Source: Planosporangium flavigriseum
GTDB lineage: Bacteria > Actinomycetota > Actinomycetes > Mycobacteriales > Micromonosporaceae
Assembly: GCF_011947225.1 (NCBI RefSeq)
Contig: NZ_JAATVW010000013.1
Location: forward strand, 1 to 64,000
Reading direction: 5' to 3'
Length of the DNA stretch: 64,000 bases
Under the pieces are notes generated by a model that ran no database searches, was not told the origin of the DNA, and was given only the letters and a program-made list of their open reading frames with translations. The translations under genes and the position numbers were made by a program. Below, piece by piece: positions 2,372 through 24,912 of the stretch (position 1 is the first letter of the stretch; every line of letters begins with the position of its first letter).

Positions 2372-2398
2372 CTCAGGACCGGCCCGCCGGTGCCGATA
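2372..2398 (+). promoter_or_regulatory. Flagellar sigma-28-type promoter for the glycosyltransferase gene
   Basis: CTCA at 2372-2375, a 16-base spacer and GCCGATA at 2392-2398. The -10 element equals the sigma-28 (FliA/WhiG) consensus GCCGATAA. The same CTCA-N16-GCCGAT arrangement recurs in front of six other flagellar or chemotaxis units here. The predicted transcript start coincides with the GTG at 2407. Confidence 0.8.
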
Positions 2399-2406
2399 CA
2401 TATCGT

Positions 2407-4584
2407 GTGAGCCGACTTCCTGTCTCGATCGTCGTTACCGCCAGCGGCAGCCTTGATGACTTCCACGCGAGTCTGGAGTGTCTGCGCCCGACCCTCGGTA
2501 TACGAGACGAGGTCGTCTGCGTCGTGCCGACCGACCGGGCAGACCTGCGCGACGAGCTCAACGGCAGAACGTGGCTCACGGTGCTCGATGTGGAGTCCGC
2601 GGACCCGGCCACCCGCTGGGCGGCCGGGTGTGCCGCCACCCGGCACTCCCTCATCGTCTTTCTCGACGGCGACGTCCTCGTCTCTCCACACTGGCTGGAC
2701 CCGGTCGTCGAGGCGTTGACCGAACCGGGCGTCGTCGCCGCCGGTCCGCGGTGCCACCTCACCATCGGCCCGCAGGGCGTCGATCTGCCCGACGAGGCGT
2801 TGGTCAACGTTCCTGCCTTCAAGTCGTACGCCCGGCAGTGGCGACAGGAGCACACCGGCAGTTTCAGCGAGGTCGACCGGCTGGGGCCGGTCTGCGCCGC
2901 CTTCCGGCGCGACGCGCTCAGCCGGGTCGGCGGGCCGACCCTCGACATGCCGTACGAGCAGTTGCGCAGGAAAGGCCGGATCGTCGTCGCGCACAGCGCG
3001 CTCGTCGCACACGTGGGTTCGGAGCAGTGCTCCCTGCGCGTGCCCGACATCTCCACCGACGCTCCCCTGCTGTCCGCGAGCCTGATCGTGAAGGACGAGG
3101 AGGAGATCCTCGCCGAGTGCCTGACCGCGCTGCGGGACTTCGTCGACGAGATCGTCGTATACGACACCGGCTCCACCGACCGATCCCGGGAGATCGCCCG
3201 CGAGCACGGCGCCCGGGTCATCGAAGGCTATTGGAACGATCATTTCGGTGACGCGCGAAACCGGTCGATCGAGAACTGTACGGGGCAGTGGGTCGTCGTC
3301 GTGGACGCGGACGAGATCATGACCGGTGATCCCGCCCAGGTGCGTGCGGCGCTGGCCACCGCCGACAGGCCGGCCCTGCTCGCCGAGGTGGAGAGCCTGA
3401 CCGGCCATGGCACCGCGACGTACGGGCGGATGCTGTCCGTCCGGTTCTTCCGGCCCAACCGCGGCCGGTACATCCGCCGCCTCCACGAGCAGGTGAGCGA
3501 CCGGATCGTCGGTCGTCCGGTACGCTCCGTGCCGCTACCCGGCGTGAGTCTTCGCCACTCCGGCTACACGACCGTCCGCGCCACCGTCAAGAACAAGGGT
3601 GAGCGCAACCTTCGACTGGCCGAGTTGTCGGTCGAGGACTCGACGGCCGGCGGCCATCATCTGATCGACCTCGCGCGCTCCCAGCTCATGGCGGGCAAGG
3701 TCGAAGAGGCGTTCGAGACGTGCCAGGAGGGGCTGGCCACCAGCACCGAGGCGGTCGTCCGGCTGGGATTCCTCCGGCCCTTGATCCACGCTTGCGAGGC
3801 CCTGGGAAAGCTCGATGTAGCCCGTGCGGCGATCGCGGAAATTCGTCAGCTGTCCAGCGCCGCCGTGGCAGATGAGTTCGAGGCGCGCATCCGTTACAAG
3901 GACGGGGACCTCGAGGGCGCCCTGGCGGCCGTCCGGGCGTTTCCGGAGTCCGTGATGGACGACCAGTTCACCTTTATCAGCCGGGATCGCCTCGCCGAAA
4001 TCGAGATTCTCAGCCTGTTCCGGCTCCAGCGCCACCGCGAGGCGGCGGAGCGGCTGCGCGAGTGCGTTCGGGCACAGACGTTGCCCCTGAACCTTCCCCA
4101 GATGGCGGCGGTGCTCAAGGCCGCCGGTTCGGGGATTGACGAGCTCGCGGACCTGGTCCCGGCGCCCGCCCTCCGCGCCCTGCTGTTCCTGACGACCGAA
4201 GCCCCGGTCGACCAGGTCGACGAGGTGCTGGAGGCGCTCTGGCAGCGGCACGCCGGCTCGGCGGCCCTGCTGGCGGCCGCGGCCCGGCTCGGTGGCGGAC
4301 TGCCGGTCATGCGTGCGATGGAGTGGGCCGCCCGCCTGCGCCAGCACGGATTCTCGGAGCACTGCACGCTGCTGGCGCTGGCCGCGAATGAGACGCGGAG
4401 GTCTCGCGACCGCGTACTGGCCACCGCGATCGCGCTGGAACTGTTCTCCGACGAGCGCGCGATGCCGCTGCTGGAGAAGACACTCGAAGCCGTACCGGAC
4501 GACGAGACCGACGCCGTGCTCGACGAACTGCGGCTGCTCGCGCCCGGAATCGCCGCGGCCATCGCGCCCGCCGCCGCCGGCTGA
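2407..4584 (+). CDS. Family 2 glycosyltransferase with TPR-like tail, probable flagellin glycosyltransferase
   Basis: The 725-residue product contains two GT-A-like family 2 glycosyltransferase segments. The first (about 1-190) begins LPVSIVVTASGS and has a DGD metal/nucleotide motif (VFLDGDVLVS). The second (about 225-420) begins SLIVKDEEEILAECL and carries VVYDTGSTDRS and the DADEIM motif. The rest (about 420-725) is alpha-helical and looks like TPR-type repeats. GT2 enzymes with TPR tails beside flagellin genes commonly O-glycosylate flagellin, which is the inferred role. An ATG at 2353 would extend the frame, but a flagellar promoter occupies 2372-2398, so the GTG at 2407, eight bases after the -10 element, is the likely leaderless start. 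Confidence 0.83.
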   Translation: MSRLPVSIVVTASGSLDDFHASLECLRPTLGIRDEVVCVVPTDRADLRDELNGRTWLTVLDVESADPATRWAAGCAATRHSLIVFLDGDVLVSPHWLDPVVEALTEPGVVAAGPRCHLTIGPQGVDLPDEALVNVPAFKSYARQWRQEHTGSFSEVDRLGPVCAAFRRDALSRVGGPTLDMPYEQLRRKGRIVVAHSALVAHVGSEQCSLRVPDISTDAPLLSASLIVKDEEEILAECLTALRDFVDEIVVYDTGSTDRSREIAREHGARVIEGYWNDHFGDARNRSIENCTGQWVVVVDADEIMTGDPAQVRAALATADRPALLAEVESLTGHGTATYGRMLSVRFFRPNRGRYIRRLHEQVSDRIVGRPVRSVPLPGVSLRHSGYTTVRATVKNKGERNLRLAELSVEDSTAGGHHLIDLARSQLMAGKVEEAFETCQEGLATSTEAVVRLGFLRPLIHACEALGKLDVARAAIAEIRQLSSAAVADEFEARIRYKDGDLEGALAAVRAFPESVMDDQFTFISRDRLAEIEILSLFRLQRHREAAERLRECVRAQTLPLNLPQMAAVLKAAGSGIDELADLVPAPALRALLFLTTEAPVDQVDEVLEALWQRHAGSAALLAAAARLGGGLPVMRAMEWAARLRQHGFSEHCTLLALAANETRRSRDRVLATAIALELFSDERAMPLLEKTLEAVPDDETDAVLDELRLLAPGIAAAIAPAAAG

Positions 4585-4611
4585 GACGGCCGCGCTGCAC
4601 GACGCCGGCCA

Positions 4612-4953
4612 TGAGCGGGGGTACACCGGTACGTCCTGGACGTACCGGTGGGCACGGACAGCGGCTTCTTCGGCTGTACGGCCGCCGAACAGCTCGTCGC
4701 CCAGTTGCTTGTCGACCGGCAGATCGACGGCTGTTGCGTGACTGCTGGAGCTCGCGGAGCTGGTATGCGCGCCGAACGCTCCGGCCTCCGACGCGGTCTT
4801 GGCCGCCGGCTGGATGGCGCAGGCTCCCCGCGTCATCGAGGACGCGGAGCTCTGGTACCGACTGGCGCGGCCGCCGACGGCACGCCCATCCCGATCGACG
4901 TGGCCACCGTGCTCACCGTGGGCTGGTTCGACAACATCCTGCTCATTCGCTGA
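4612..4953 (+). pseudogene. Frameshifted gene of unknown function between the glycosyltransferase and flgB
   Basis: Coding-like sequence runs through this stretch but switches frame. From about 4630 the frame reads YVLDVPVGTDSGFFGC, from about 4742 a +1 frame reads LLELAELVCAPNAPASDAVL through EDAELWYRLA, and from about 4866 the first frame resumes with DGTPIPIDVATVLTVG and ends at the TGA at 4951-4953. Joined, the pieces give one coherent protein of about 110 residues with typical GC-rich codons. A nearby ATG (4612) is out of frame with the first piece, so a further shift in a run of five Gs may exist. I do not recognise the family. Either the gene has decayed or the read contains indels. 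Confidence 0.55.
4624..4650. repeat. 27-bp near-perfect palindrome
   Basis: CACCGGTACGTCC and GGACGTACCGGTG form two perfect 13-bp arms around one central T. It lies at the start of the frameshifted gene, about 40 bases after the glycosyltransferase stop. The tiny centre makes it look more like a dimeric-regulator operator than a terminator; no protein partner can be named. Confidence 0.5.
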
Positions 4954-5029
4954 GCGAGCAGCACCGGGGGCGCCGAGACGGTACCCGTTTGGCAACCGCC
5001 AAGCCGGTGATTGGCAACCGACAAAGCCG

Positions 5030-5055
5030 TTCAAGCCCCCAGCTCCCTGCCGATG
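5030..5055 (+). promoter_or_regulatory. Sigma-28-like promoter of the flgB operon (variant)
   Basis: TTCA at 5030-5033, a 15-base spacer and GCCGATG at 5049-5055. This is one base off the CTCA-N16 form seen at the other flagellar promoters. It leaves an untranslated leader of about 75 bases before flgB. Confidence 0.6.
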
Positions 5056-5136
5056 AGAACCATGAGCACGGAGCGCTCAACTGGGTCGCCATGGATCGGC
5101 GATACGTACCACCGTCGCCGAAGGGAGCGTCCTCCG

Positions 5137-5487: not shown

Positions 5488-5488
5488 C

Positions 5489-7838: not shown

Positions 7839-7840
7839 CG

Positions 7841-12209: not shown

Positions 12210-13777
12210 CGACGGTTCTCCCCGTGAGCCCCCCGGCCACGCGGACACCCGCGCGGAGCGGAAACGACGCTCCGACCGGGCACGACGCGTTCGGCGCGGT
12301 CCTCTCGGCGCTGGTTGGCGGCGACGACCCGGCCTCGCGTCAGGTCGCTGCCGACAACGGCACGGACGGCGGCAGGGCTAAGGACGGCGCCAGGGCTAAG
12401 GACGGTGCCAGGGCTAAGGACGGCGCCAGGGCTAAGGACGGCGCCAGGGCTTCCGACGCCCGGACGCCGGAGCGCGACGCGCCCGAAGCCAGCGCCGACA
12501 ACGCCACCAGCAACCGCCTGCAGGGCAAGGCGGCCACCGGCAAGGACGACGACGCCACCGCCGGAGACGCCGCGGCCAAGGCCACCGCTGCGGCGGAGGC
12601 CGCGAGCGCCGCGGCTGCGGAGGCCGCGAGCGCTGCCGCCGTGTCGACCGCCGGGTGGCTCACCGCAGCCGTACCGGTTACGGACAGTGCTCCGGGCGTG
12701 CCCGGTGCGAGCGGCGTTCCTGGGCTGACCGGCGTGGCCGGCACCGGCCCGGGCATCACGGCGGCGGCTGCGGGCGCGACCGCGGCGGGCGTGGCACCGG
12801 CCACCGGCGAGCCGGCGACGGCCGCCGGTCAGACCGGAGCGGTACCCGGCCAGGCCGGCGTGCCAGCAGGTACGCCCAACGGTCCAGCGCAGGCCGTTGC
12901 CACCCCCCTGCCAGCCGCGCCCCGCACTCCTGAGTCGTCAGCGGGCACGGCCGCGACCACCCAGCCGACGGCCGTCCCGGCCAGCGCCGCCGGCGCGTCC
13001 ACGCAGCCGGCCGGCGCCACGGCGCAGCCGGCGGCGCCCGCCGGCAACCCGCCGGCCGTCCAGCCGATCGCCGACGGCGCGACCGCGGGCCAGCCCGCGG
13101 CCAACAAGGCAGCCGACGCGCCGGCGCCGCAGGCTCCGGTGACCACGCCAGCTGCCTCGGCGGACGCCAAGGCGACCGACCGTACGCGCCGGGGGGACGA
13201 CACCGGCACCAGCGCGACGGCGACCGTCTCGGCCGATCCGGCCACGGCGACCGCGGCGACCGCGGCGACCGCGGCCACTCTGGCCCCGGCCCCGACGGCG
13301 GCCCAGCCGGTTCAGGCGCCCGTCACGGGTGCGCCCGCGACCCCCGCAACACACGCCGCGCAGCTCGCCGAGCGCCTGGCACCGCTACGAAAGGGGCCGG
13401 ACGGCGTACATCGTTTGACAATCCACCTCAACCCGGTGGATCTCGGGCCGATCAGTGTAACGGCGGAAGTCCGCGGCGGGGACATCCATGTCCACCTCGC
13501 CGGCGCGACGGACGCTGCCCGGGAAGCGCTGCGTGCGGCACTTCCCGAGCTGCGAAAGGAACTGCAGGGATCCGGGTTCGGATCGAGCTCGCTGGACGTG
13601 TCACGCGACGCGCCCGGCAACGGCGGCGCGCCGGGCCGGCAGGCCCGCGAGCACCAGCCGCAGGCTCGTACCGACGCTCGCCGCGAGGAGCGCGAGGAGC
13701 GCGCGGAGCGATACCGGGGCTCGACGGGCGAACGTGCCCCGCGCCTCGGCCGCGCCGGCCTCGACCTGCACGTTTAA
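12203..13777 (+). CDS. fliK: Flagellar hook-length control protein FliK
   Basis: FliK is exported during hook growth as a molecular ruler and switches export specificity through its C-terminus. The 524-residue product is almost wholly low-complexity Ala/Pro/Thr/Gly up to about residue 390. It then has the compact C-terminal Flg_hook domain (about 395-470: LTIHLNPVDLGPISVTAEV and an alpha/beta fold). The tail is Arg/Glu-rich. A block of 18-nt repeats lies near residue 58. GTG 12203 overlaps the preceding stop and follows AGGAAAGAG; GTG 12206 is an equally possible start. Confidence 0.88.
   Translation: MVTTVLPVSPPATRTPARSGNDAPTGHDAFGAVLSALVGGDDPASRQVAADNGTDGGRAKDGARAKDGARAKDGARAKDGARASDARTPERDAPEASADNATSNRLQGKAATGKDDDATAGDAAAKATAAAEAASAAAAEAASAAAVSTAGWLTAAVPVTDSAPGVPGASGVPGLTGVAGTGPGITAAAAGATAAGVAPATGEPATAAGQTGAVPGQAGVPAGTPNGPAQAVATPLPAAPRTPESSAGTAATTQPTAVPASAAGASTQPAGATAQPAAPAGNPPAVQPIADGATAGQPAANKAADAPAPQAPVTTPAASADAKATDRTRRGDDTGTSATATVSADPATATAATAATAATLAPAPTAAQPVQAPVTGAPATPATHAAQLAERLAPLRKGPDGVHRLTIHLNPVDLGPISVTAEVRGGDIHVHLAGATDAAREALRAALPELRKELQGSGFGSSSLDVSRDAPGNGGAPGRQAREHQPQARTDARREEREERAERYRGSTGERAPRLGRAGLDLHV
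12373..12444 (+). repeat. Four tandem 18-nt repeats inside fliK
   Basis: The unit CAGGGCTAAGGACGGCGC is repeated four times head to tail with one variant base, followed by a 6-base start of a fifth. It encodes a six-residue R-A-K-D-G-A repeat in the disordered ruler region. Gain or loss of units would keep the frame and change ruler length by six residues each. Confidence 0.9.
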
Positions 13778-13792
13778 GACCTAAGGAGCCCC

Positions 13793-14221: not shown

Positions 14222-14248
14222 CCGGCATACCTTACCGAGGAAGGCACC

Positions 14249-15460
14249 ATGCTCCGTTCCCTGTTCAGCGGTATCAGCGGCCTGCGCGTCCACCAGACGA
14301 TGATGGACGTGACCGGCAACAACATCTCCAACGTCAACACCGCGGGCTTCAAGACCTCGCAGAGCGTGTTCGAGGACACCCTGAGTCAGATGCTCAAGGC
14401 CGCGGGCGCGCCCCAGAATGGCGCCGGCGGCACCAACCCCGCCCAGGTCGGCCTCGGTGTCCGCCTCGCGGGCATCAACACCAACTTCACCCAGGGCGGT
14501 ACCCAGAACACCGGCCGCACCACCGACCTGATGATCAACGGTGACGGCTTCTTCGTGGTCCGCAACGGCGGCGAGGCCATGTACACCCGGTCCGGCGCGT
14601 TCAACTTCGACGCGACCGGCATCCTGGCCGGTCCGGGCGGCGCGGTCGTCCAGGGCTGGATGGCTGACCCCACCGGAGCCATCAACACCAACGCTGCGGT
14701 GGGCGACGTCAAGCTCGCCGTGGGCACGCTGCTGGCGCCGACCAACACCGACAACATGACCCTGGGCGGCAACCTGCCCGCCGACTCCACGACTGCGGGC
14801 ACGACGCCGATCACGATGTCGGAGACGGTCTACGACGCACAGGGCAACAAGGTCCAGCTGAGCGTGTCGTTCACCAAGCTGAGCGCCACGAGCTGGAGCG
14901 TGACCGCCACCGACGGAACGACGCCGACCGCGGCCACGACCATCAACTTTGCCGCCGACGGCAGTGGGCCACCCGCGCCGACCAGCATCTCGTACACGAA
15001 CGCCGCGTTCACCGCGCCCGGCATCGCCATCGACCTGACGAAGCTCACCAGCTACGCCGGCGCGTCGTCGGTGGGCATCCAGAGCCAGAACGGCTCCGGC
15101 ATCGGCTCGCTGCAGTCGTTCACGATCTCCCCGGACGGCACCCTCGTCGGCGTGTTCTCCAACGGGAAGAAGCAGGCGCTGGCGCAGATCGCCATGGCGA
15201 CGTTCAACAACCCGCCCGGCCTGGAGAAGACCGGCGGCTCGATGTACCGCTCGACGGTCAACTCCGGTCTCGCGCAGCTCGGCACCGCCGGCACCGGTGG
15301 GCGGGGCGGGCTGCAGGGCAGCTCCCTGGAAATGTCCAACGTGGACCTGGCTCAGGAGTTCACCAACCTGATCATCGCCCAGCGCGGTTTCCAGGCGAAC
15401 ACCAAGGTCATCAGCACCTCCGACGAGCTACTGAACGACCTGGTGAACCTCAAGCGCTAA
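14249..15460 (+). CDS. flgE: Flagellar hook protein FlgE
   Basis: FlgE polymerises into the hook, the universal joint between rod and filament. The 403-residue product begins LRSLFSGISGLRVHQ with NNISNVNTAGFKTSQ (residues about 27-41), the invariant rod/hook signature. It has the FlgE-type motif DLMINGDGFFVVR near residue 92 and ends with the conserved helix (NVDLAQEFTNLIIAQRGFQA). ATG 14249 follows GAGGAAGG. It ends the operon that begins at flgB; hairpins follow. Confidence 0.95.
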   Translation: MLRSLFSGISGLRVHQTMMDVTGNNISNVNTAGFKTSQSVFEDTLSQMLKAAGAPQNGAGGTNPAQVGLGVRLAGINTNFTQGGTQNTGRTTDLMINGDGFFVVRNGGEAMYTRSGAFNFDATGILAGPGGAVVQGWMADPTGAINTNAAVGDVKLAVGTLLAPTNTDNMTLGGNLPADSTTAGTTPITMSETVYDAQGNKVQLSVSFTKLSATSWSVTATDGTTPTAATTINFAADGSGPPAPTSISYTNAAFTAPGIAIDLTKLTSYAGASSVGIQSQNGSGIGSLQSFTISPDGTLVGVFSNGKKQALAQIAMATFNNPPGLEKTGGSMYRSTVNSGLAQLGTAGTGGRGGLQGSSLEMSNVDLAQEFTNLIIAQRGFQANTKVISTSDELLNDLVNLKR

Positions 15461-15467
15461 GCCTGAG

Positions 15468-15517
15468 ACCACCCGAGGCGACCACGGGTGGTGAACCGGC
15501 TGCCGCGTCAGCCGGTT
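15468..15517 (+). terminator. Two hairpins after flgE
   Basis: ACCACCCG at 15468-15475 pairs with CGGGTGGT at 15485-15492, and AACCGGCT at 15494-15501 pairs with AGCCGGTT at 15510-15517. The second is followed by TT only. Together they probably end the flgB-flgE transcript before the next promoter. Confidence 0.6.
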
Positions 15518-15549
15518 TGCCACCCGTGCGCCGTATCACCCGACAAAAC

Positions 15550-15576
15550 CTCAACACTCGCTGATCCCCGCCGATG
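15550..15576 (+). promoter_or_regulatory. Sigma-28-type promoter of flbD-motA-motB-fliL
   Basis: CTCA at 15550-15553, a 16-base spacer and GCCGATG at 15570-15576. The predicted start leaves an untranslated leader of about 95 bases before flbD. Confidence 0.78.
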
Positions 15577-15676
15577 TAAAGGCGGGCCCAAGGACGGGTC
15601 TGCCAGCACCGTCCCCGCCGCGGCCACGAGCCCCGGCTCGACGATCGCCCCACCACCTGCACCAAGGACGGCCACC

Positions 15677-15985
15677 GTGATACTCCTGACGCGCCTCAAC
15701 GGCCCGGTCTTCGCGCTCAACCCTGACCTGGTCGAGCGCGCCGACTCCACTCCCGACACCGTCATCACCCTGGTGGACGGCACGAAGTACGTCGTGGGCG
15801 AGTCGCTGGCCGAGCTCGTCGCGCTGATCAGGCGGTATCGGGCGTCCGTGGTCGCGGAGGCCCAGCAGATGGTCGCCCAGCCCCACGAGCCGCGCCGCGA
15901 GCCCGTACCGCACGACGGCGACGGCGACGGCGAGAACTCCGCCGACAGCGCCAACGTCGTCCAGTTTCACCGCAGGGAGCGCTGA
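15677..15985 (+). CDS. flbD: FlbD/SwrD-family flagellar protein
   Basis: The 102-residue product begins VILLTRLNGPVFALNPDLVE and contains DTVITLVDGTKYVVGESL, the whole signature of the short FlbD (YlzI/SwrD) family found after flgE and before fliL or motA in many Gram-positives. In Bacillus subtilis SwrD raises motor power. The C-terminal third is a charged, probably disordered extension (many Asp, Glu, His). GTG 15677 follows AAGGA at 15664-15668; the stop overlaps motA by one base. Confidence 0.88.
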   Translation: MILLTRLNGPVFALNPDLVERADSTPDTVITLVDGTKYVVGESLAELVALIRRYRASVVAEAQQMVAQPHEPRREPVPHDGDGDGENSADSANVVQFHRRER

Positions 15986-16755
15986 TGGATCCGGCAACCC
16001 TAATCGGCGTCGCGGTCGCTTTCGGCGCCATCTTCATGGCGATGACCCTCGAGGGCACGCCGATCATGCACATCCTGCTGCCGGCGCCGCTGATCCTGGT
16101 GTTCGTCGGCACGTTCGGCGTCGGCATGGCCAGCGGCATCATGCGGGACACCACCGGCTTCGTCACCCAGCTCAAGAAGGCGTTCCTGGCCAAGCCCGGC
16201 AAGCCCGACGAGCTGGTCGAGGCGATGGTCAAGCTGGCCGAGAAGGCCCGCCGCGAGGGCCTGCTGGCCCTCGAGGACGCCATGAAGGACGTCGAGAACG
16301 AGTTCCTCAAGCGCGGCCTGCAGCTGGCCATCGACGGCACCGACTCCGAGGAGCTCCGCGAGATCCTCGAGGGCGAGGTCGACGCGAAGCGCAAGGCCGA
16401 CAAGGCCGGCGCGAAGATCTTCACCGACATGGGCGGCTTCGCACCCACCATCGGCATCATCGGTACCGTCGTCGGCCTGGTCCACGTGCTGTCCAACCTG
16501 AGCCAGCCGGAACAGCTCGGCCACATGATCGCCGCGGCGTTCGTCGCGACGCTGTGGGGCATCCTGGCCGCCAACGTGATGTGGCTGCCGATCGGCAACC
16601 GGCTCAAGCGGGTGTCCGAGGTCGAGTGCGGCCAGATGGACCTGGTGATCGCCGGCATCATCAACATCCAGGCCGGCGCCAACCCGCGTCTGGTGGCGCA
16701 GAAGCTGCGCAGCATGATGCCGCCGGGCTCCGAGTCCAAGAAGAAGGCGGCCTGA
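15985..16755 (+). CDS. motA: Flagellar motor stator protein MotA
   Basis: MotA (256 residues) and MotB form the stator ion channel that drives FliG. Four membrane segments are visible: about 3-22, 28-48, 150-172 and 180-202. The motif FAPTIGIIGTVVGLVHVL (residues about 152-169) is the conserved MotA/TolQ/ExbB signature with the channel proline. The cytoplasmic loop between helices 2 and 3 carries the charged residues that meet FliG. Its TGA overlaps the ATG of a 12-codon ORF rather than motB. Confidence 0.95.
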   Translation: MDPATLIGVAVAFGAIFMAMTLEGTPIMHILLPAPLILVFVGTFGVGMASGIMRDTTGFVTQLKKAFLAKPGKPDELVEAMVKLAEKARREGLLALEDAMKDVENEFLKRGLQLAIDGTDSEELREILEGEVDAKRKADKAGAKIFTDMGGFAPTIGIIGTVVGLVHVLSNLSQPEQLGHMIAAAFVATLWGILAANVMWLPIGNRLKRVSEVECGQMDLVIAGIINIQAGANPRLVAQKLRSMMPPGSESKKKAA

Positions 16756-16793
16756 TGAGCGCCGCCCGCGCCCGACACAGGGCGCCGTCATGA
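16755..16793 (+). CDS. 12-codon ORF linking motA and motB
   Basis: ATG 16755 overlaps the motA stop (TGATG) and this ORF's TGA (16791-16793) overlaps the motB ATG (ATGA at 16790). It encodes MSAARARHRAPS. No ribosome site precedes motB itself, so ribosomes reading this short frame would be delivered to the motB start. The peptide is Arg-rich and has no recognised family; it may matter only as a coupling device. Confidence 0.45.
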   Translation: MSAARARHRAPS

Positions 16794-17692
16794 GCAACCA
16801 CAAGGCGGGTCGCGGCAAGAAGCACGGCGGCGCGCACGAGGAGGAGCACGAGAACCACGAGCGGTGGCTCGTCACGTACGCGGACATGCTGACGCTGCTC
16901 ATGGTTCTGTTCGTCGTGCTGTTCGCGATGAGCTCGGTCGACGCCAAGAAGTTCACCGCACTGCGCGACGGCCTGGCCAAGGGCTTCGGCGCGCCGGCGA
17001 TCATGTCGGGCACCAACAACTCGGTCCAGACCGCGGGCGGCTCGCAGAGCGCGATCGACGTCGCCGCCGGGGTCGGCGAGATGCCGGACAAGCCGCAGAC
17101 CCAGGCCCAGGACCCGGCGCTGCAGAAGGCCGTGCAGGATGCCGACCGGGCGCGCCAGCAGCGCATGCAGGCCAACGCCCAGCAGGAGGCCCAGAACCTC
17201 GACGAGATCAGAAAACAGATCCTCGAGGCGGCCAAGCAACAGGGCGTAGAGGGCCAGCTCCGCTTCACCATCGACGAGCGCGGTCTGGTCGTCACGGTCG
17301 TCACCAGCGAGGTGGTCTTCGCCGGTGACCGCGCCGAACTGCTCCCACCCGGCCAGAAGATCCTGGACGCGGTGGCGCCCGCGCTGACGCCGCTGCCCAA
17401 CCACATCGAGGTGGACGGGCACACCAACCAGCTTCCGGTACCGACGAGGTACTACCCCAGCGCGTGGGAGCTGTCCACGGCCCGCGCCTCGACGGTCGTG
17501 CGGTACCTGATCGACAAGGGGCATGTGCCGGCCGAGCGGATGTTCGCGGCCGGCTTCGCCGGCCAGAAGCCGCTGTACCCGCCGAACGACCCGAAGGCGC
17601 CGGAGCTGAACCGGCGCGTCGAGATCATCGTCCTGTCCACGCTGCCCCCCGCGGAGCGCGCCCTGCTGCCGTCGGCGGCGGGCCCTGTCTGA
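16790..17692 (+). CDS. motB: Flagellar motor stator protein MotB
   Basis: MotB (300 residues) anchors the stator to the cell wall and supplies the ion-binding aspartate. After a basic, His-rich N-terminus, one membrane helix (about 28-48) begins WLVTYADMLTLLMVLF with the channel Asp in YAD. A linker containing the plug and a coiled coil (about 100-150) leads to the OmpA-like peptidoglycan-binding domain (about 180-285, motif IEVDGHTNQLP and ELSTARASTVVRYL). Length is normal. The start is coupled to the 12-codon ORF upstream. Confidence 0.95.
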   Translation: MSNHKAGRGKKHGGAHEEEHENHERWLVTYADMLTLLMVLFVVLFAMSSVDAKKFTALRDGLAKGFGAPAIMSGTNNSVQTAGGSQSAIDVAAGVGEMPDKPQTQAQDPALQKAVQDADRARQQRMQANAQQEAQNLDEIRKQILEAAKQQGVEGQLRFTIDERGLVVTVVTSEVVFAGDRAELLPPGQKILDAVAPALTPLPNHIEVDGHTNQLPVPTRYYPSAWELSTARASTVVRYLIDKGHVPAERMFAAGFAGQKPLYPPNDPKAPELNRRVEIIVLSTLPPAERALLPSAAGPV

Positions 17693-17724
17693 CCCGCCCC
17701 TGCGGCGCGAGAAAAGGAAAGATC

Positions 17725-18159
17725 ATGGCTAAGGAAGAGAAGGCCGCCGAAGAGGCGCCAAAGAAGTCGAAGAAGAAGCTCCTCATCATCGTGGCTGCCG
17801 TGGTGGTGCTGCTCGGCGGCGGCGCCGGCGGGTACTTCGCGTTCTTCAGCGGGCCGAGTACCCCCAAGCCGCCGACGCCGGGCAAGGTCGTCGCGCTGGA
17901 GGCGATCACCCTCAACCTGGCCGACGGGCACTTCCTCAAGCTGAAGCTCTCCCTGCAGGCGACCGCGGACGCCGCCGAGGAGCCGGACGGCAGCAAGGCG
18001 CTGGACATCGCCATCTCCGAGTTCAGCAACCGGCCGGTCGCCGAGCTGTCCTCCAACGCGGCCCGGGACAAGGCCAAGGCCGAGCTGCGCAAGAAGATCA
18101 ACGAGGCGTACGAAGGCCACGTCATGGACGTGTACTTCACCGAGTTCGTGATGCAGTAG
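17725..18159 (+). CDS. fliL: Flagellar basal body-associated protein FliL
   Basis: FliL surrounds the stator and supports its recruitment. The 144-residue product has a Lys/Glu-rich cytoplasmic start, one membrane helix (about 17-38, KKLLIIVAAVVVLLGGGAGG) and a stomatin-like periplasmic domain with LEAITLNLADGHFLKLKLSL and the C-terminal VYFTEFVMQ typical of FliL. ATG 17725 follows AAAGGAAAG. Two stop codons in a row (TAGTAG) end it. Confidence 0.93.
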   Translation: MAKEEKAAEEAPKKSKKKLLIIVAAVVVLLGGGAGGYFAFFSGPSTPKPPTPGKVVALEAITLNLADGHFLKLKLSLQATADAAEEPDGSKALDIAISEFSNRPVAELSSNAARDKAKAELRKKINEAYEGHVMDVYFTEFVMQ

Positions 18160-18166
18160 TAGGACC

Positions 18167-18196
18167 GTCGGGTCGCCCGCCTACCGGGCACCCGAC
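18167..18196 (+). terminator. Hairpin after fliL
   Basis: GTCGGGTCGCCCG pairs with CGGGCACCCGAC around a 5-base loop, a stem of about 12 pairs with one bulge, seven bases after the fliL stop and before the fliM promoter. There is no T run. Confidence 0.55.
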
Positions 18197-18222
18197 ATCA
18201 CCCAATCACCCGACAAGGATTC

Positions 18223-18249
18223 CTCAAGCCAGGCTCGGGCCGGCCGATG
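18223..18249 (+). promoter_or_regulatory. Sigma-28-type promoter of the fliM-flhB operon
   Basis: CTCA at 18223-18226, a 16-base spacer and GCCGATG at 18243-18249. The fliM GTG begins eight bases later, at the expected transcript start, so fliM should be leaderless. Confidence 0.82.
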
Positions 18250-18257
18250 GTTTCGAC

Positions 18258-19211
18258 GTGACTCAAGCGTCGTCCATGGCCGGCTCGAACCGCCCCGCAG
18301 GCCGTATCAACCGCCGCTCGAAGGGCGCCGGGCCGTTACCGTACGACTTCCGACGCCCAACGAAGCTGTCCCGTGAACACATCCGCACGCTGCAGATCGC
18401 GTACGAGACGTTCGCGCGCCAGTTCACCACGGTCCTGACGACGAGCCTGCGCGCGGTTTCGCAGGTCACGCTGCTGTCTATCGAGCAGTTCACCTACGAC
18501 GAGTACATCGCCTCGCTGGAGAGCCCGACCGTCGTGGCCAAGGTCAGCATGGAGCCGCTCCCCGGCACCGCGATCGTCGAGTTCTCCCTGGACATCGCGA
18601 TGACCTCGATCGACCACATGCTCGGCGGCTCCGGTGGCCCTCAGCCCCAGCGGCCGCTGACCGACATCGAGACGCCGCTGCTGCAGGGCCTCTTCGGCCG
18701 CGTACTCGGTGAGCTGCGCTACGCCCTCGAAGGCATTGCCTCGGTGCGGCCCGAGCTCATCGGCATCGAGTACAACCCGCAGTTCGTGCAGGCCGGTGGC
18801 GCCTCCGACCCGGTGATCGTCGCCTCCTTCGAGATGAAGGTCGGCGCCTCGGAGGGCGTCGCCACCGTCTGCATGCCGCTCGGCATGATCTTTCCGAAGC
18901 TGCAGGGCGATCGGACCGACGTCCAGCTCAGCGCCGCTCAGCGCGCTGCCCGCGAGGCGGCGCACCGCAACCTGGTCGCCGGCATGGAGAGCGTCCCGCT
19001 CGACGTCAGCGTCCGGTTCCAGCCGGTGCGGATGCGACCCGAAGAACTGATCAACCTGCGCCTCGGTGACGTCGTCACCCTCAATCACCCGTCGACGCAA
19101 CCACTCGCGGTCACCACCGCGGGCATGACATTCGCTCACGCCGTACCCGGCAGCCATGGCACTCGCCTGGCCTGCCTGATCGTGGCACCCGCCAAGGAGG
19201 AAGACCGCTGA
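18258..19211 (+). CDS. fliM: Flagellar motor switch protein FliM
   Basis: FliM (317 residues) forms the C-ring wall between FliG and FliN. Residues about 40-230 are the CheC-like middle domain with the FliG-binding MLGGSGG motif near 115. The last 75 residues are a SpoA domain ([20 protein letters not shown]) that pairs with FliN. The N-terminus is a basic peptide leading straight into [13 protein letters not shown]; the LSQxEIDALL peptide that binds CheY-P in other FliM proteins is not present. GTG 18258 lies eight bases after the -10 element and no upstream in-frame start is compatible with the promoter. Confidence 0.94.
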
Positions 19212-19963
19212 TGACCGCTCCCACCGCAACATCGCAAGACCTGGGCCGAGCGCTCGCGGCGGCCCAGGCCGCGGTCGCCCTGCTGCCGGCGAGCAGCCCG
19301 CTCTCGCCCGGTGAGCCGACGCAGGACCCGACCGAGATCACGCTCGCGGGCCAGGTCATCCGGGCCCGCTTCGCCGGTGCCGCCCAGGGCGAGATCCTCG
19401 TCATGGTCGCCCAGGACCTCGTCGACGCGCTCAGTGAGACCCCGCTCGGCTCGCTCGACGTGACCCAGGCCGTGCGCCCGGCCATCGAGGCCGCCGCCGG
19501 CACCCTCGGCCCGGTCGTCGTCGACCCGGGCAACGTAACCGACCCCGCCGACGCGCTCGCTTCCCTCGTCGCCGAGGGTGGGGTGCTCGTACCGCTGACG
19601 GACGGCACCGACGTCCGCGGCGTGGTCGGCCTGCAGGTGAAGGTCGACGCCACGGGCGCCGCGACGCCGCCCGCACCGTCGGTGACGTCCGCGCCGGACA
19701 AGCCCGCTCCGCGTACCGGCCTGGACCTGCTCCACGACGTGGAGATGGAGGTCACCGCCGAGCTCGGGCGTACCCGCATGAGCGTGCGCGAACTGCTCGC
19801 GCTGACCCCCGGCAACGTGGTCGAACTGGACCGCGCCGCCGGCGCTCCGGCCGACCTGCTGGTCAACGGCCGGCTGATCGCCCGCGGCGAGGTCGTCGTG
19901 ATCGACGAGAACTTCGGTATCCGGGTCACGGAGATCATCTCGCCGTCCGAGCAGCGGTCCTGA
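19211..19963 (+). CDS. fliN: Flagellar motor switch protein FliN/FliY-type
   Basis: FliN forms the base of the C-ring with the FliM C-terminus and binds FliH. At 250 residues this protein is longer than enterobacterial FliN (about 137). Residues about 165-245 are the SpoA domain ([20 protein letters not shown] then [20 protein letters not shown]). The first 150 residues form an additional alpha/beta domain with the size and position of the CheC-like part of FliY, but I see no clear CheC phosphatase E-x2-N motif in it. The ATG overlaps the fliM stop. Confidence 0.9.
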
Positions 19964-19972
19964 GAGGTAGCC

Positions 19973-20401
19973 GTGATCGAGCTGACCATCCGGATCGTCT
20001 TCTCGCTGCTCGTGGTCGTCGCCCTCATGTGGGGAATGGCCAAGCTGGCGCGCAAGCCGCTCGGGATACGCCGCGGTGGTGGCCTCATCGAAGTCCTGGG
20101 TCGCCAGCAGCTCAGTCGCAGCGCCTCGGTCGCCGTGGTACGGGTCGCCGACAAGGCGATGGTGCTCGGCGTCACCGACGGCCAGGTGAGCCTGATCAGC
20201 GAGGCCGACCTGGCCACGATCGAGGAGTACCAGCCGGAGGCGCCGGTCAAGCGCGAACCGCTCTCCCTGGAATCGCTCGACTCCGCGACCACCCCCGCCG
20301 GCGCCCGCGCGATCGGACCGCTGAACGGTTCGGTGCTGTCGCCTGACATGTGGAAGCAGACCATGCAGTTCCTGCGCGAACGGACGGTGCGCAAGCCGTG
20401 A
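19973..20401 (+). CDS. fliO: Flagellar export protein FliO/FliZ family
   Basis: FliO helps assemble the FliP ring of the export gate. The 142-residue product has one N-terminal membrane helix (about 6-26, IVFSLLVVVALMWGMAKL) and a cytoplasmic beta domain (IEVLGRQQLSRSASVAVVRV, VLGVTDGQVSLI) typical of FliO. GTG 19973 follows GAGAGGTAG; the stop overlaps the fliP GTG. Confidence 0.88.
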   Translation: MIELTIRIVFSLLVVVALMWGMAKLARKPLGIRRGGGLIEVLGRQQLSRSASVAVVRVADKAMVLGVTDGQVSLISEADLATIEEYQPEAPVKREPLSLESLDSATTPAGARAIGPLNGSVLSPDMWKQTMQFLRERTVRKP

Positions 20402-21273
20402 AGCACCGGATCCGCTCGATCCTCGCCACCGCCGGCATCGGTGTGGCGCTGCTGCTCGGTACGCCCGCGGCGCCCGCGGCAGCAGCGCCGGCGACCGCGT
20501 CCGCCGCGCTCGCCGTGCCGGTCGCGCACTCGCCGCTCGCCGTGTCGCCGCTGGCGTTCTCTCCGGTCACCGCGCCGGTGCCGCCTCAGCCGCCCGCCCC
20601 GCCGACGGAGCCACAGGGAACGGTCAGCGTCAACGTAGGCAACGGCAAGCCGAGCCAGTCGATCGTCATCCTGATCGCGCTCACCGTACTGTCGGTGGCA
20701 CCGGCTCTAATGCTGCTGTGCACCAGCTTCACGAAGATTTTCGTGGTTCTGAGCATCACCCGCAACGCGCTCGGCCTGACGACCGTCCCACCCAACCAGG
20801 TCCTCGCCGGTCTGGCCCTGTTCCTCAGCCTGTTCATCATGGGCCCCGTCATGTCGGACATGAACCGCGACGGCGTGCAGCCTTACCTCAAGGGCGAGAA
20901 GACCCAGAGCGTGGCGTTCACCGACGGCGTGAAGCCGCTGCGGGAGTTCATGCTCAACCACACCCGCAAGGACGAGTTGGCGCTCTTCACCAAGGTCGCC
21001 AACCGTCCCATGCCGAAGAACCGGGATGACGTTCCACTGTCGACGATCGTGCCGGCGTTCGCGCTGTCCGAACTGCGGGCCGCGTTCATCATCGGCTTCG
21101 TCATCTACATTCCGTTCCTGGTCATCGACATGATCGTCGCGGCGTCACTGATGAGCCTCGGCATGATGATGCTGCCGCCGGTCACCGTGTCCCTGCCGTT
21201 CAAGATGCTGCTTTTCGTACTCGTCAACGGCTGGGGGCTGGTCATCACCGCCCTGGTCGCCAGCTACCACTGA
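20398..21273 (+). CDS. fliP: Flagellar biosynthesis protein FliP
   Basis: FliP (291 residues) is the main subunit of the FliPQR export gate. It has a cleavable-type signal sequence (about 1-30) and an unusual Ala/Pro/Val-rich stretch of about 50 residues, then the conserved core. Core motifs are LCTSFTKIFVVLSITRNALG, VPPNQVLAGLALFLSLFIMG and FVIYIPFLVIDMIVAASLMS (positions about 103-255). GTG 20398 overlaps the fliO stop (GTGA). Confidence 0.94.
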   Translation: MKHRIRSILATAGIGVALLLGTPAAPAAAAPATASAALAVPVAHSPLAVSPLAFSPVTAPVPPQPPAPPTEPQGTVSVNVGNGKPSQSIVILIALTVLSVAPALMLLCTSFTKIFVVLSITRNALGLTTVPPNQVLAGLALFLSLFIMGPVMSDMNRDGVQPYLKGEKTQSVAFTDGVKPLREFMLNHTRKDELALFTKVANRPMPKNRDDVPLSTIVPAFALSELRAAFIIGFVIYIPFLVIDMIVAASLMSLGMMMLPPVTVSLPFKMLLFVLVNGWGLVITALVASYH

Positions 21274-21285
21274 GGGCCTGCGCTC

Positions 21286-21561
21286 ATGACCGACACCCAG
21301 ATCGTCCACATCGGCCTGCAGACCATGACGGTCTCGGCGAAGCTCGCTGCTCCCGTACTGCTCACCGCACTGCTCATCGGCTTCGCCGTCTCGCTCTTCC
21401 AGTCGGTGACCCAGATCCAGGAGGCCACCCTGTCCTTCGTACCGAAGGCGATCGGCTGCGGGATAGCGCTGCTGGTGACGGGCAACTGGATGCTGCACGA
21501 GATGATCACGTTCACCAAGATGCTGTTCGCCCAGATTCCGACCCTGCTGGGGAGCGCATGA
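21286..21561 (+). CDS. fliQ: Flagellar biosynthesis protein FliQ
   Basis: FliQ (91 residues) is the two-helix subunit wrapped around the FliP-FliR gate. Both membrane helices are visible (about 18-40 and 52-75), with the conserved segment LFQSVTQIQEATLSFVPK between them. It overlaps fliR by four bases. Confidence 0.94.
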   Translation: MTDTQIVHIGLQTMTVSAKLAAPVLLTALLIGFAVSLFQSVTQIQEATLSFVPKAIGCGIALLVTGNWMLHEMITFTKMLFAQIPTLLGSA

Positions 21562-22331
21562 ATCTGTCTCTGCCGGTGGCGGAGCTGACCGCGCTGCTGC
21601 TGGCGTCGGTACGGGCCGCCGCGTGGCTGATGATCTCGCCGCCGTTCAACACGAACGTGATCCCGGCCCAGATCAAGGCGCTGCTGTCGGTGGCGATCGC
21701 GCTGCCGGTCGTGCCGTCCATCGTCGGCAAGGTACCCGCCCTCGACACCGCCGCGATGGTGGTCAGCCTCGCGGAACAGGTCGTCCTGGGCACCGCGCTG
21801 GGCTTCCTGACGGCCTTGCTGTTCGCCGCGGTGCAGGCCGCCGGCAGCCTGATCGACCTGTTCGGCGGCTTCTCGCTGGCGTTCGCGTTCGACCCGATGG
21901 GCGCCACCGGCAACGGCGGTAGCGGTGTCTTCGGCCGGTTCTACAACCTCGTGGCGATCACGCTACTGTTCGCCACCGACGGCCACCAGCTTGTCCTACG
22001 CGGCTTCACCACCTCGTACAACGTGCTGCCGCTGAACGGCACGCTGTCCCTTTCCAACCTTCAGCACCTGCTCACCGACGGCATCGTCGAGATGTTCGCC
22101 GCCTCGCTCCAGATCGCCGGCCCGCTGATCGCCGTGCTCTTCTGCGCCGACATCGGGCTCGGCCTGCTGTCCCGGGTGGCGCCCGCGCTCAACGCGTTCT
22201 CGCTCGGCTTTCCGGTGAAGATCCTGCTGACCCTGACCGGGGTCGGCCTGGCGATGACGATGCTTCCGCTCGCCGTCGAGAACCTCGTCGACAAGGCCGT
22301 CAAGGCCGTGATGCAGGCGATCGGATCATGA
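21558..22331 (+). CDS. fliR: Flagellar biosynthesis protein FliR
   Basis: FliR (257 residues) completes the export gate. It is strongly hydrophobic with about six membrane segments and the family motif LFGGFSLAFAFDPMGATG near residues 95-112, plus the C-terminal SLGFPVKILLTLTGVGLAM. ATG 21558 overlaps the fliQ stop. A long palindrome of 74 bases separates it from flhB. Confidence 0.93.
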   Translation: MNLSLPVAELTALLLASVRAAAWLMISPPFNTNVIPAQIKALLSVAIALPVVPSIVGKVPALDTAAMVVSLAEQVVLGTALGFLTALLFAAVQAAGSLIDLFGGFSLAFAFDPMGATGNGGSGVFGRFYNLVAITLLFATDGHQLVLRGFTTSYNVLPLNGTLSLSNLQHLLTDGIVEMFAASLQIAGPLIAVLFCADIGLGLLSRVAPALNAFSLGFPVKILLTLTGVGLAMTMLPLAVENLVDKAVKAVMQAIGS

Positions 22332-22369
22332 GCGGTCACCTGTGGTCGTCGCACCCGTCGCACCTCCAT

Positions 22370-22443
22370 GATCCGCGCAATGTGTCACTCTTTGCTGCTA
22401 TCTCGCGCCCTGAAGCAGCAATGTGTGCGACATTGCGCGGATC
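22370..22443. repeat. GATC-bounded 74-nt imperfect palindrome between fliR and flhB
   Basis: Outer arms of 14 bp (GATCCGCGCAATGT at 22370-22383, ACATTGCGCGGATC at 22430-22443) and inner arms of 8 bp (TTGCTGCT at 22392-22399, AGCAGCAA at 22414-22421) are separated by 8-by-8 base internal loops that still share several pairs. The apical loop is 14 bases. It lies inside an operon, so it is either a mild attenuator, an RNA processing or stability site, or a mobile palindromic element. Confidence 0.8.
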
Positions 22444-22473
22444 TTGCGGCGCACCTGGCTCGGAGGGGGTGTC

Positions 22474-23556
22474 GTGAGCGGCGAGAAGACAGAGAAGCCT
22501 ACCGAGAAGAAGAAGCGGGAAGCGCGCAAAGAGGGACAGATCGCGCGTACCCCCGACCTGGGGTCGTGGGGTGGCCTGCTCGTCGCGAGCATGCTGTTGC
22601 CGATGCTGGTGCGCAACATCATGGACACCACGGAGAAGCTGTTCGTCCAGTGCACCGCCGTGATCAGCGATCCCGATCCGGGCAAGGCGATGAAGCTCCT
22701 GGTCACAGGGCTGACGGACGGCGCGATGACCGTGGCGCCGCTCGCGTTCGCCATGATGGCCACCGCGATCATCGCCGCCGCGGCGCAGGGTGCCCTCCGC
22801 CCCTCTTCCAAGCTGCTCAAGCCGGACGTCAAGCGACTCAACCCGTTCACCGGCATCAAGAAGACGTTCGGCCCGCAGGCGCTCTGGGAAGCGGTCAAGG
22901 TGACCGCCAAGACGGCGGTCCTCGGTACCGTGCTGTATCTGCAGCTTCGAACGATGCTGCCCGGCCTGGTCACAGCCGCCTCAATGCCGCTGCCAGCGCT
23001 GCTCAAGCTGATCGCCGACGCGATCCTCGCCCTGTTCCGGACCGCCGCCGCGGCGGGCCTCGTGATCGCGGTAGCTGACTACGCGATGTCCCGCCGGCGT
23101 ACCAACAAGCAGCTCAAGATGAGCAAGCACGAAGTCAAGCAGGAGCACAAACAGCAGGAGGGCGACCCGCTGCTCAAGGGCGCGATCCGGTCACGGCAGA
23201 TGGCGATGAGCCGCCAGCGGATGATGAGCGACCTCGCGAAGGCCGACGTCGTGCTGGTGAACCCGACCCACGTCGCGGTCGCGCTGCGCTACGACCCGAG
23301 CAAGGGCGCACCCCGGGTGGTGGCCAAGGGCGCGGGCGCGATCGCGGCCCGCATCCGTGAGGTGGCGGCCGAGAAGCGCATCCCGATGGTGCAGGACGTA
23401 CCGCTGGCCCGCGCCCTGTACAAGGCCTGCGATCTGGGCAGCGAGATCCCGCCGGAGTTGTACAGCGCGGTCGCGCGGGTGCTTGCCTTCGTGATGACGC
23501 TCAAGACGCGTGGCTCGGCGGCGGGTCTGCACCGCGCGCCGGCGCTCACGAACTGA
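22474..23556 (+). CDS. flhB: Flagellar export switch protein FlhB
   Basis: FlhB (360 residues) guides export and switches substrate class when cut at its NPTH loop. The N-terminus has the typical GEKTEKPTEKKKREARKEGQ pattern, followed by four membrane segments (about 33-53, 85-108, 145-165, 180-205). The autocleavage motif NPTH is present near residue 262, followed by VAVALRYDPSKGAPRVVAKG. GTG 22474 follows GGAGGGGG at 22462-22469. Confidence 0.95.
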   Translation: MSGEKTEKPTEKKKREARKEGQIARTPDLGSWGGLLVASMLLPMLVRNIMDTTEKLFVQCTAVISDPDPGKAMKLLVTGLTDGAMTVAPLAFAMMATAIIAAAAQGALRPSSKLLKPDVKRLNPFTGIKKTFGPQALWEAVKVTAKTAVLGTVLYLQLRTMLPGLVTAASMPLPALLKLIADAILALFRTAAAAGLVIAVADYAMSRRRTNKQLKMSKHEVKQEHKQQEGDPLLKGAIRSRQMAMSRQRMMSDLAKADVVLVNPTHVAVALRYDPSKGAPRVVAKGAGAIAARIREVAAEKRIPMVQDVPLARALYKACDLGSEIPPELYSAVARVLAFVMTLKTRGSAAGLHRAPALTN

Positions 23557-23632
23557 TGGTGTACGGGATCAGACGCGGCGGGCTACGGCGCCGATGACCG
23601 CGGCCGGATGATCTCTGCCAGGACGCCTACGA

Positions 23633-24877
23633 TCATGAAGAGTGGGTCGGGCCGAGAACGCCCCGCACGGTCCGCACGGACCAGCCCACCGCGCTCAGGT
23701 ACGCCTTGGCCAGTTCGGCCGGCGACACCTTGGAGTGGCTGAGAATCGACGCGTCAGCGCCCTCGTAGCCGCGAGCCGTCTCCAGCACCTCGCCCAGCGG
23801 GCCGGCGCCGTGGACCAGAGCGGCGGTCACATCGTCCGCGAGCGGCAGCGACGCGACGAGGTCCGACACCGGAACGCCGAGCACGTCCGCGACGCCCCAC
23901 AGCAGACCGACGACGAACGCCGAATCGGCGGAGGCGTCCAGTCTGGGAGCGATCGTCTGGCACAGCTTCGCCCGTGCCATGGCCGTCGACAGGTGGTCCT
24001 CCGCCACCTCGGCGATGTCGGACACCAGCATCAGCGTGACCCACTCGCGGATCCGGCGACCGCCGAGCATGACGACCGCCTCGTGGACGGACGAGACCCG
24101 ACGGGCCAGACCGCCGGCAGCGGCGTTCGTCGCCCGCAGTACGCGGAACGACAGGCCCGGGTCGCTGATCACGATCGACACGACATGGTCGAGATCGGTC
24201 TCCGCGCCGGTCAGCGCGGCCAGCAACTCCAGTCGGCGCAGGCGCGACGGCGCGAGCGTGGCGATCGACACCACCTGGGTGCGACTCAGCGCGTACCCCT
24301 GGTAGAGCTCGAACCCGAGTTCCTGGGCGAGCATGAGGTGCTGGGGCGCCTCCACCTTCTCGGCGACCAGCTTGATGTGGGGGTACCGCCGGCACTCCTC
24401 CGCAACGGACGTGATCCGTGTGACGTCCCCGTCAAGGACGTCGATCTTCACGTACGAGGCGATGTCCAGCAGTCGCTCGTGGCCCAGGCCGAAGACGAAG
24501 TCGTCGAGGGCGATCGGATACCCCTGCTCCACCAGCCGGGCCGCGCCGGCGATCGCCTCGTCGTCCATCTCGACGGTCTCGAGCACCTCCAGGACGACCT
24601 GGCCGGGTTCGAACGGCAGCGCCAACTCCCCCACGATGAACTCGCGCGTGAGGTTGATGAAGCAGGTGTGGTTGCCGACCAGCTCGCGCAGCCCGAACTC
24701 GGTGAACGCGTTCACGATCACCTGGCTGGTGGCGTAGGCGTTGCGGCGGGACGCCGCTACCTCGGCACCGCCGCCACGAAAGAGCAGCTCGTACCCGACG
24801 ACGTCACCCGCTGGGTTGTACAGCGGCTGGCGTCCGACGTGGACGATCTGCCCAGCGGAGGCTTCTGAGGCGGACAT
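23633..24877 (-). CDS. EAL-HDOD signalling protein (YuxH type)
   Basis: The 414-residue product has an EAL-type domain (about 10-190) followed by an HDOD domain (about 200-400). In the EAL part the signature reads YELLFR, with INLTREF, LDDFVFG, KIDVLDGD and VAEKVEAP following in order, so several metal-binding positions remain. Proteins of this EAL-HDOD form are often divergent in c-di-GMP hydrolysis, so activity is uncertain. It is the only leftward gene within the flagellar locus and is divergent from flhA. Its own sigma-28-type promoter places ATG 24877 eight bases after the -10 element, which implies leaderless translation and co-expression with the flagellum. Confidence 0.86.
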   Translation of the reverse strand: MSASEASAGQIVHVGRQPLYNPAGDVVGYELLFRGGGAEVAASRRNAYATSQVIVNAFTEFGLRELVGNHTCFINLTREFIVGELALPFEPGQVVLEVLETVEMDDEAIAGAARLVEQGYPIALDDFVFGLGHERLLDIASYVKIDVLDGDVTRITSVAEECRRYPHIKLVAEKVEAPQHLMLAQELGFELYQGYALSRTQVVSIATLAPSRLRRLELLAALTGAETDLDHVVSIVISDPGLSFRVLRATNAAAGGLARRVSSVHEAVVMLGGRRIREWVTLMLVSDIAEVAEDHLSTAMARAKLCQTIAPRLDASADSAFVVGLLWGVADVLGVPVSDLVASLPLADDVTAALVHGAGPLGEVLETARGYEGADASILSHSKVSPAELAKAYLSAVGWSVRTVRGVLGPTHSS

Positions 24878-24885
24878 GTCGCACC

Positions 24886-24912
24886 GATCGGCAACCGGAA
24901 ACCTTTACTGAG
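24886..24912 (-). promoter_or_regulatory. Sigma-28-type promoter of the EAL-HDOD gene
   Basis: Read on the minus strand: CTCA (24912-24909), a 16-base spacer and GCCGATC (24892-24886), then eight bases and the ATG at 24877. It is back to back with the flhA promoter. Confidence 0.8.

Follow-up and report, generated by a model that had tools for sequence, protein, structure and literature searches.

In the window analysed here, a 64,000-nucleotide (nt) stretch of the Planosporangium flavigriseum genome that carries a flagellar gene cluster (NZ_JAATVW010000013.1; contig C5, genome size 5.72 Mb), promoters of a single type, that of sigma-28 (FliA/WhiG), probably feed two kinds of messenger RNA (mRNA). 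In the first, exemplified by fliM, the transcript is predicted to begin at the start codon, leaving no leader; in the second, that of flbD and flhA, a leader with conserved hairpins precedes the gene and is predicted to be gated by CsrA. A preliminary description of this DNA had proposed that the starts of a glycosyltransferase gene, of fliM and of a gene for an EAL-HDOD protein lie exactly eight bases beyond the motif GCCGATN. The positions agree with the sequence: GCCGATA ends at 2398 and is followed by GTG at 2407, GCCGATG ends at 18249 with GTG at 18258, and the minus strand has GCCGATC up to 24886 and ATG at 24877, CTCA standing 16 bases before GCCGAT at each of the three sites. The distance, by which is meant hereafter the number of bases between GCCGATN and the start codon, is thus invariant at the three sites of the window; in relatives it ranges from 7 to 9.

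Fixed distance between promoter and start codon

In the set of 81 named fliM loci (80 named relatives and the window), 134 matches to CTCA-N-GCCGAT have a spacing of 16, compared with at most 18 matches at any other spacing between 8 and 25. ATG or GTG (RTG) occurs at distance 8 in 44 of these 134 matches, the next most frequent distances in the range 0 to 59 being 38 (16 matches) and 1 (15 matches); the 44 are not independent, because most matches belong to fliM orthologues. Within the genome of P. flavigriseum itself, RTG is found at distance 8 in 7 of 52 matches with spacing 16 (Poisson P about 7e-4), while the other distances from 0 to 99 have a mean of 1.44 and a maximum of 6. Four of the seven codons head open reading frames of at least 317 amino acids (aa), and three head frames of 7, 26 and 45 aa. 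The fixed distance is not a product of chance. A FliA/WhiG sigma factor is encoded in the genome (TIGR02479, 196.9 bits against a cut-off of 189.6). Promoter type and gene cluster match those of the flagellar system of Actinoplanes missouriensis, for which Jang et al. 2016 reportedly described promoters of the form CTCA(N15-17)GCCGAA from 11 starts mapped by RACE (rapid amplification of cDNA ends).

The leaderless-type start of fliM

The distance at fliM was measured from the motif match that scored best around the start in each locus, picked without start-codon information. In 76 of the 81 named loci an in-frame start lies 7–9 bases past the -10 element, at distance 8 in 61, 9 in 14 and 7 in one, and every one of these starts is GTG. 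FliM was found in 71 of the 249 genomes sampled across the order; in the 70 that were examined, one partial match being omitted, the start is found at 7–9 in 67 (65 GTG, 2 ATG), which represent nine of nine families. Several genomes are common to the two sets, and since the loci are mutually related all conservation counts given here are non-independent, a first point that tells against the interpretation. Between the promoter and the YDF conserved in FliM lie 59 to 135 nt, the N-terminus of the protein being of variable length.

Ribosome-site strength was expressed as the energy of the duplex with the anti-Shine-Dalgarno sequence and called strong at or below -6 kcal/mol, a level reached by 7% of 1620 random windows. 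The duplex is strong at 1 of 76 fliM starts, as opposed to 67 of 75 flbD starts; in the window the energies are -1.2 kcal/mol for the glycosyltransferase gene, -1.6 for fliM and -1.4 for the EAL-HDOD gene, so that the earlier claim of a class without ribosome sites holds. The base preceding the GTG of fliM is C in 62 of 76 loci, and mycobacterial transcription starts favour C at -1 (PMC4633059; this and the other cited sources are used in excerpt). In one of the four groups of loci compared, six from Nocardioides/Pimelobacter, all 23 pairwise differences in codons 2–10 fall at third positions, the control being the 60 bases upstream of fliM in the same loci, with 52, 54 and 27 differences. As judged from sequence, a leaderless state of fliM is well supported. 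In the window fliM begins 99 nt past the end of fliL and has no ribosome site, and read-through mRNA from flbD-motAB-fliL should therefore translate it poorly.

The FliM of the window is 88% identical to that of Planosporangium thailandense and 85% to that of P. mesophilum, which places the genome in the Micromonosporaceae. It starts VTQASS..PYDFRRP (18258–19211) and lacks an N-terminal EIDALL segment, which I take to be the CheY-binding site of FliM. In the distant family f35 (L255, L256, L271), EIDALL is retained close after a leaderless-type GTG. The fliM promoters of family f16 (L035–L038, L209–L227 and others) have GTCA as the -35 element and a spacing of 17, despite which the -10 element and a distance of 8–9 bases to GTG are retained.

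Leaders of flbD and flhA

The sigma-28 promoter of flbD is present in 68 of 75 loci, in all of which the start lies 54–100 nt after it. The 120 nt before flbD were searched for hairpins presenting A-GGA in a loop of 5–7 bases, with dinucleotide shuffles for comparison. At least one such hairpin was found in 63 of 75 loci (shuffle mean 9.2, maximum 15) and at least two in 27 of 75 (shuffle mean 0.62, maximum 3). When sites were picked by sequence only, as CANGGANG, 59 of 75 loci proved to have an upstream site and 59 of 75 one between -24 and -6, the two occurring together in 52 of 75. The upstream stem varies while its loop retains ANGGAN, and it covaries: among 56 distinct sites, pairs 3 and 4 are paired in 52 and 50 (shuffle maxima 41 and 43), pairing at position 5 being not above shuffles. 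Two of the four matches to CCANGGANGG in the window fall in the flbD leader. Positions 15400–25100 of the window match no Rfam family at E up to 1, and the presence of a known riboswitch or other catalogued RNA in the leaders was rejected. Control of the flbD leader by CsrA is, from these patterns, likely.

The flhA promoter was found in 39 of the 60 loci examined. Of these 39 leaders, 31 contain a GGA-loop hairpin, against a mean of 2.96 and a maximum of 8 in mononucleotide shuffles; often it takes the form GCC[AGGAN]GGC, close to the predicted 5' end. No GGA site was seen on the flhA ribosome site in the window. CsrA control of the flhA leader, of either sign, is plausible.

The preliminary description had also put forward that the flagellar genes fall into leaderless and leadered classes under different translation control. 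At the level of sequence both parts stand: the fliM distance is kept over nine families while the flbD and flhA leaders are long at loci with a recognizable promoter, and the conserved GGA-loop hairpins of these leaders offer a concrete candidate for the control.

Glycosyltransferase and EAL-HDOD genes

Seven of eight glycosyltransferase orthologues with an intact start have it at distance 8, four as GTG and three as ATG; the promoter motif is strong in five of the seven and weak in two (scores 7 and 8 of 10). The case for a leaderless state of this gene, as judged from its orthologues, is good. That of the EAL-HDOD gene would be recent. Elsewhere in the genome, a second GT2 protein, encoded outside the cluster (contig C11, L133:62-1084(-)), has GTG at distance 8 from a sigma-28 motif, and an EAL protein (contig C13, L136:1053) has ATG at distance 7 from one. 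In the window, at 24887–24947, two divergent sigma-28 promoters stand nine bases apart, the EAL-HDOD side being of the leaderless type and the flhA side leadered.

CsrA and FliW

The csrA gene adjoins fliW on contig C11, behind flgN, flgK and a gene with a flagellin domain. The encoded protein contains the segment VHREEV, which presumably holds the RNA-binding arginine. Across the order, csrA is present in 70 of 71 genomes with FliM, compared with 8 of the 178 others, all eight belonging to family f10 (G009, G053, G061, G103, G137, G143, G161 and G173). These eight have no FliM match at the sensitivity of the search; possible readings are that flagella were lost, that FliM has diverged, or that CsrA has another use there. 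The single Flagellin_N match in the genome lies on contig C11 between flgK and fliW (L183:14973-15866(-)) and is probably flgL; the same Flagellin_N search did not find fliC in the assembly, which appears to lack the filament gene.

Proposed division of the regulon

I propose that one sigma-28 regulon is divided according to the form of the mRNA 5' end. In the leaderless class, comprising above all fliM, the glycosyltransferase gene of the flagellar cluster and, in close relatives, the EAL-HDOD gene, transcription would begin at the G or A of the RTG or one to two bases earlier, and ribosomes would start on the 5'-terminal codon in the absence of a ribosome site. For flbD-motAB-fliL and flhA, the leadered class, promoters of the same type would give rise to a leader of about 50–100 nt with GGA-loop hairpins, the second flbD site covering the ribosome site. 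CsrA, restrained by FliW, would bind these leaders. At flbD it would probably repress, as in Bacillus subtilis hag; at flhA, where the sites are near the predicted 5' end, binding could bring repression or else protection of the mRNA, as in Escherichia coli flhDC. The leaderless genes would offer no leader on which CsrA could act, and fliM, poorly translated from read-through transcripts, would rely on its own promoter. That the regulon is split in this manner, into leaderless genes and leadered genes under predicted CsrA gating, is the probable reading of the data. More tentative, and to my mind possible rather than probable, is the further step in which leaderless transcription would amount to an exemption from CsrA and FliW: a single flagellar sigma factor would turn on every operon simultaneously, but the flbD/stator and flhA operons would wait for FliW to take CsrA away, and the fliM operon would be translated at once.

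Alternative readings and points against

One may ask whether fliM is simply an ordinary actinobacterial leaderless gene, its start kept through common ancestry, of no regulatory significance and unconnected with any leadered class. Leaderless-type starts do occur outside flagellar systems in this group, as illustrated by a non-flagellar gene of A. missouriensis whose transcription start was mapped one base from the start codon (PMC11064477). Against this, flbD and flhA remain leadered under the same type of promoter and carry conserved hairpins, which argues that the form of the 5' end is gene-specific and stable; an explanation by descent without regulation thus appears rather unlikely. A related idea, that RTG at +1 is a mere preference of the promoter, was rejected: RTG lies at distance 7–9 in just 4 of 68 flbD and 0 of 39 flhA promoters, and is therefore not part of the promoter itself.

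The second alternative concerns the leaders, whose hairpins could be 5' stabilizing stems, or sites for an RNA-binding protein other than CsrA. Two properties of flhA fit such a role: its first hairpin sits close to where the transcript is predicted to begin (CCAGGA at index 9–13 past the -10 element in 29 of 39 leaders), and its loop, AGGAN, is a pentaloop, one base short of the ANGGAN hexaloop, which also counts against CsrA binding. For flbD, however, the loop that is kept while the stems vary is the hexaloop bound by RsmE (PMC7652899), the second site sits on the ribosome site like that of hag, and csrA co-occurs with fliM, so I regard hairpins unrelated to CsrA as unlikely.

Lastly, that fliM truly starts further down, at an in-frame ATG (18276 in the window) preceded by a short leader, is highly improbable: such codons exist in many fliM loci (17 at distance 38, others at 26, 41 and 56), but they are absent or misplaced in many relatives whereas GTG is retained in 76 of 81, the third-position pattern of codons 2–10 in the Nocardioides/Pimelobacter group speaks for translation from the GTG, and no ribosome site is seen before ATG 18276.

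Several observations weigh against the proposed division. As regards fliM, the arrangement is missing from L048, L079, L090, L091 and L094 in the named set, two of which, L079 and L091, apparently correspond to L017 and L018 and regain distance 8 once a spacing of 17 is allowed; from L028, L036 (contig edge) and L222 in the order set; and from most loci of distant families, where it was seen in only 6 of 29 (29 of 61 other matching genomes were examined). In the other three fliM groups the first-position differences in codons 2–10 are about as numerous as those at third positions, second positions having the fewest. A GGA-loop hairpin also occurs at 8 of 76 fliM 5' ends (shuffle mean 3.7, maximum 9), and the EAL-HDOD arrangement is found in 3 of 12 orthologues, the closest only.

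As regards the leaders, the stem of the second, downstream flbD site shows no covariation above shuffles. In the window, the flbD hairpin is absent from the minimum-energy fold, the flbD and flhA leaders are no more stable than shuffles, and CCANGGANGG is not enriched (4 found, 3.44 expected). The sigma-28 motif is lacking at 21 of 60 flhA loci, many of them from Actinoplanes, and 8 of the 39 flhA leaders have no hairpin; those of Dactylosporangium are short and mostly without one.

Other promoters and feature positions

The window holds nine exact matches to CTCA-N16-GCCGAT rather than the eight promoters first counted; the match at 13427 was rejected as a promoter, since the map of open reading frames places it within fliK. 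The preliminary description had assigned leaders with ribosome sites to five promoters. Those of flbD (100 nt), flhA (74 nt) and cheA (27 nt) are credible; the cheB promoter is ambiguous, with several possible starts (distances 6, 57 and 75), and no start that looks coding follows the match at 48126(-) within 120 nt. At 48101–48126(-) this exact motif is followed by a 10-bp stem rich in G+C. Two equal-scoring sigma-factor fragments elsewhere in the genome (C11:100065-100202 and C43:3350-3487, profile positions 1–46, one of them at a contig end) are possibly a second FliA-type gene split by the assembly. Coordinates are collected in Table 1.

Table 1. Promoters, genes and candidate CsrA sites in the window (aa, amino acids).
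Position	Strand	Feature	Remarks
2372..2397	+	Sigma-28 promoter of glycosyltransferase gene, CTCA-N16-GCCGAT	Motif, orthologues
2407..4584	+	Glycosyltransferase gene (725 aa, two GT2-like regions)	Proposed leaderless GTG, distance 8
15550..15575	+	Sigma-28 promoter of flbD-motA-motB-fliL	
15584..15601	+	Upstream CsrA-like site GGGCCC[AAGGAC]GGGTCT	At predicted transcript 5' end
15662..15671	+	Second CsrA-like site CCAAGGACGG	Includes flbD ribosome site AAGGA
15677..15985	+	flbD (PF06289)	Leadered, GTG at distance 100
18223..18248	+	Sigma-28 promoter of fliM	CTCA-N16-GCCGAT
18258..19211	+	fliM (PF02154)	Proposed leaderless GTG, distance 8; motif and conservation
23633..24877	-	EAL-HDOD gene	Proposed leaderless ATG, distance 8
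24887..24912	-	Sigma-28 promoter of EAL-HDOD gene	Divergent from flhA promoter
24922..24947	+	Sigma-28 promoter of flhA	
24952..24972	+	flhA-leader hairpin TCGGTGCC[AGGAA]GGCATCGG	About predicted 5' end
25023..27062	+	flhA (PF00771)	Leadered, GTG at distance 74
37598..37652	-	Sigma-28 promoter and short leader of cheA	TTG 37598 at distance 27, strong ribosome site

Comparison with known systems

Leaderless mRNAs, sigma-28 promoters and the CsrA-FliW pair are each already known; searches of the open-licence literature showed no earlier account of fliM as a leaderless gene or of CsrA sites in the leaders of flbD or flhA. The genes described here share with the leaderless mRNAs of mycobacteria, as excerpted in PMC4633059, an ATG or GTG as predicted first codon of the transcript, the lack of a ribosome site and, at fliM, a preference for C at -1, but differ from them in that the promoter is of the sigma-28 type, that fliM nearly always has GTG, and that one gene keeps the proposed state across the sampled families of the order. 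Cappable-seq data exist for A. missouriensis (PMC11064477).

Sites for CsrA/RsmA are hairpins with an ANGGAN hexaloop (PMC7652899). The hag leader of B. subtilis has two CsrA sites, one of them covering the ribosome site (PMC7652899), and both the presence of two GGA sites, one over the ribosome site, and the occurrence of csrA and fliW in the genome recall the present case (PMC7652899, PMC2587704), although the leaders are here those of flbD-motAB-fliL and flhA and not that of flagellin. The flhDC mRNA of E. coli is protected by CsrA at two sites close to its 5' end (PMC7652899); flhA leaders likewise have their sites near the 5' end, target gene and organism being different. Within the actinobacteria, a CsrA site was proposed in 2008 for a flagellin gene, and csrA was noted beside flagellar genes in four flagellated species (PMC2587704). 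The proposal concerned the single flagellin gene of Kineococcus radiotolerans, an actinobacterium with motile spores and with csrA beside its flagellar genes, in which a GGA at the ribosome site resembles the site BS2 of hag (9 of 12 match; PMC2587704). What differs here is that paired candidate sites are found in flbD and flhA, over 75 and 39 loci, and stand in contrast to genes of the leaderless type.

Implications

A single type of promoter, which the eye picks out without difficulty, would thus feed leaderless or leadered 5' ends gene by gene, across many genera, the leadered ones with candidate CsrA sites, and a regulatory use of leaderless translation, which is widespread in actinobacteria, becomes testable through swaps of 5' ends inside one regulon. 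If the predictions are true, the targets of CsrA and FliW in actinobacteria would extend beyond flagellin, and the operon headed by a leaderless fliM, which encodes C-ring and export-gate components, would be translated immediately and only from its own promoter. The timing of zoospore assembly in actinobacteria would then be set by mRNA 5' ends and not by a transcriptional cascade, which may explain how an order of assembly is achieved where one sigma factor serves all flagellar operons.

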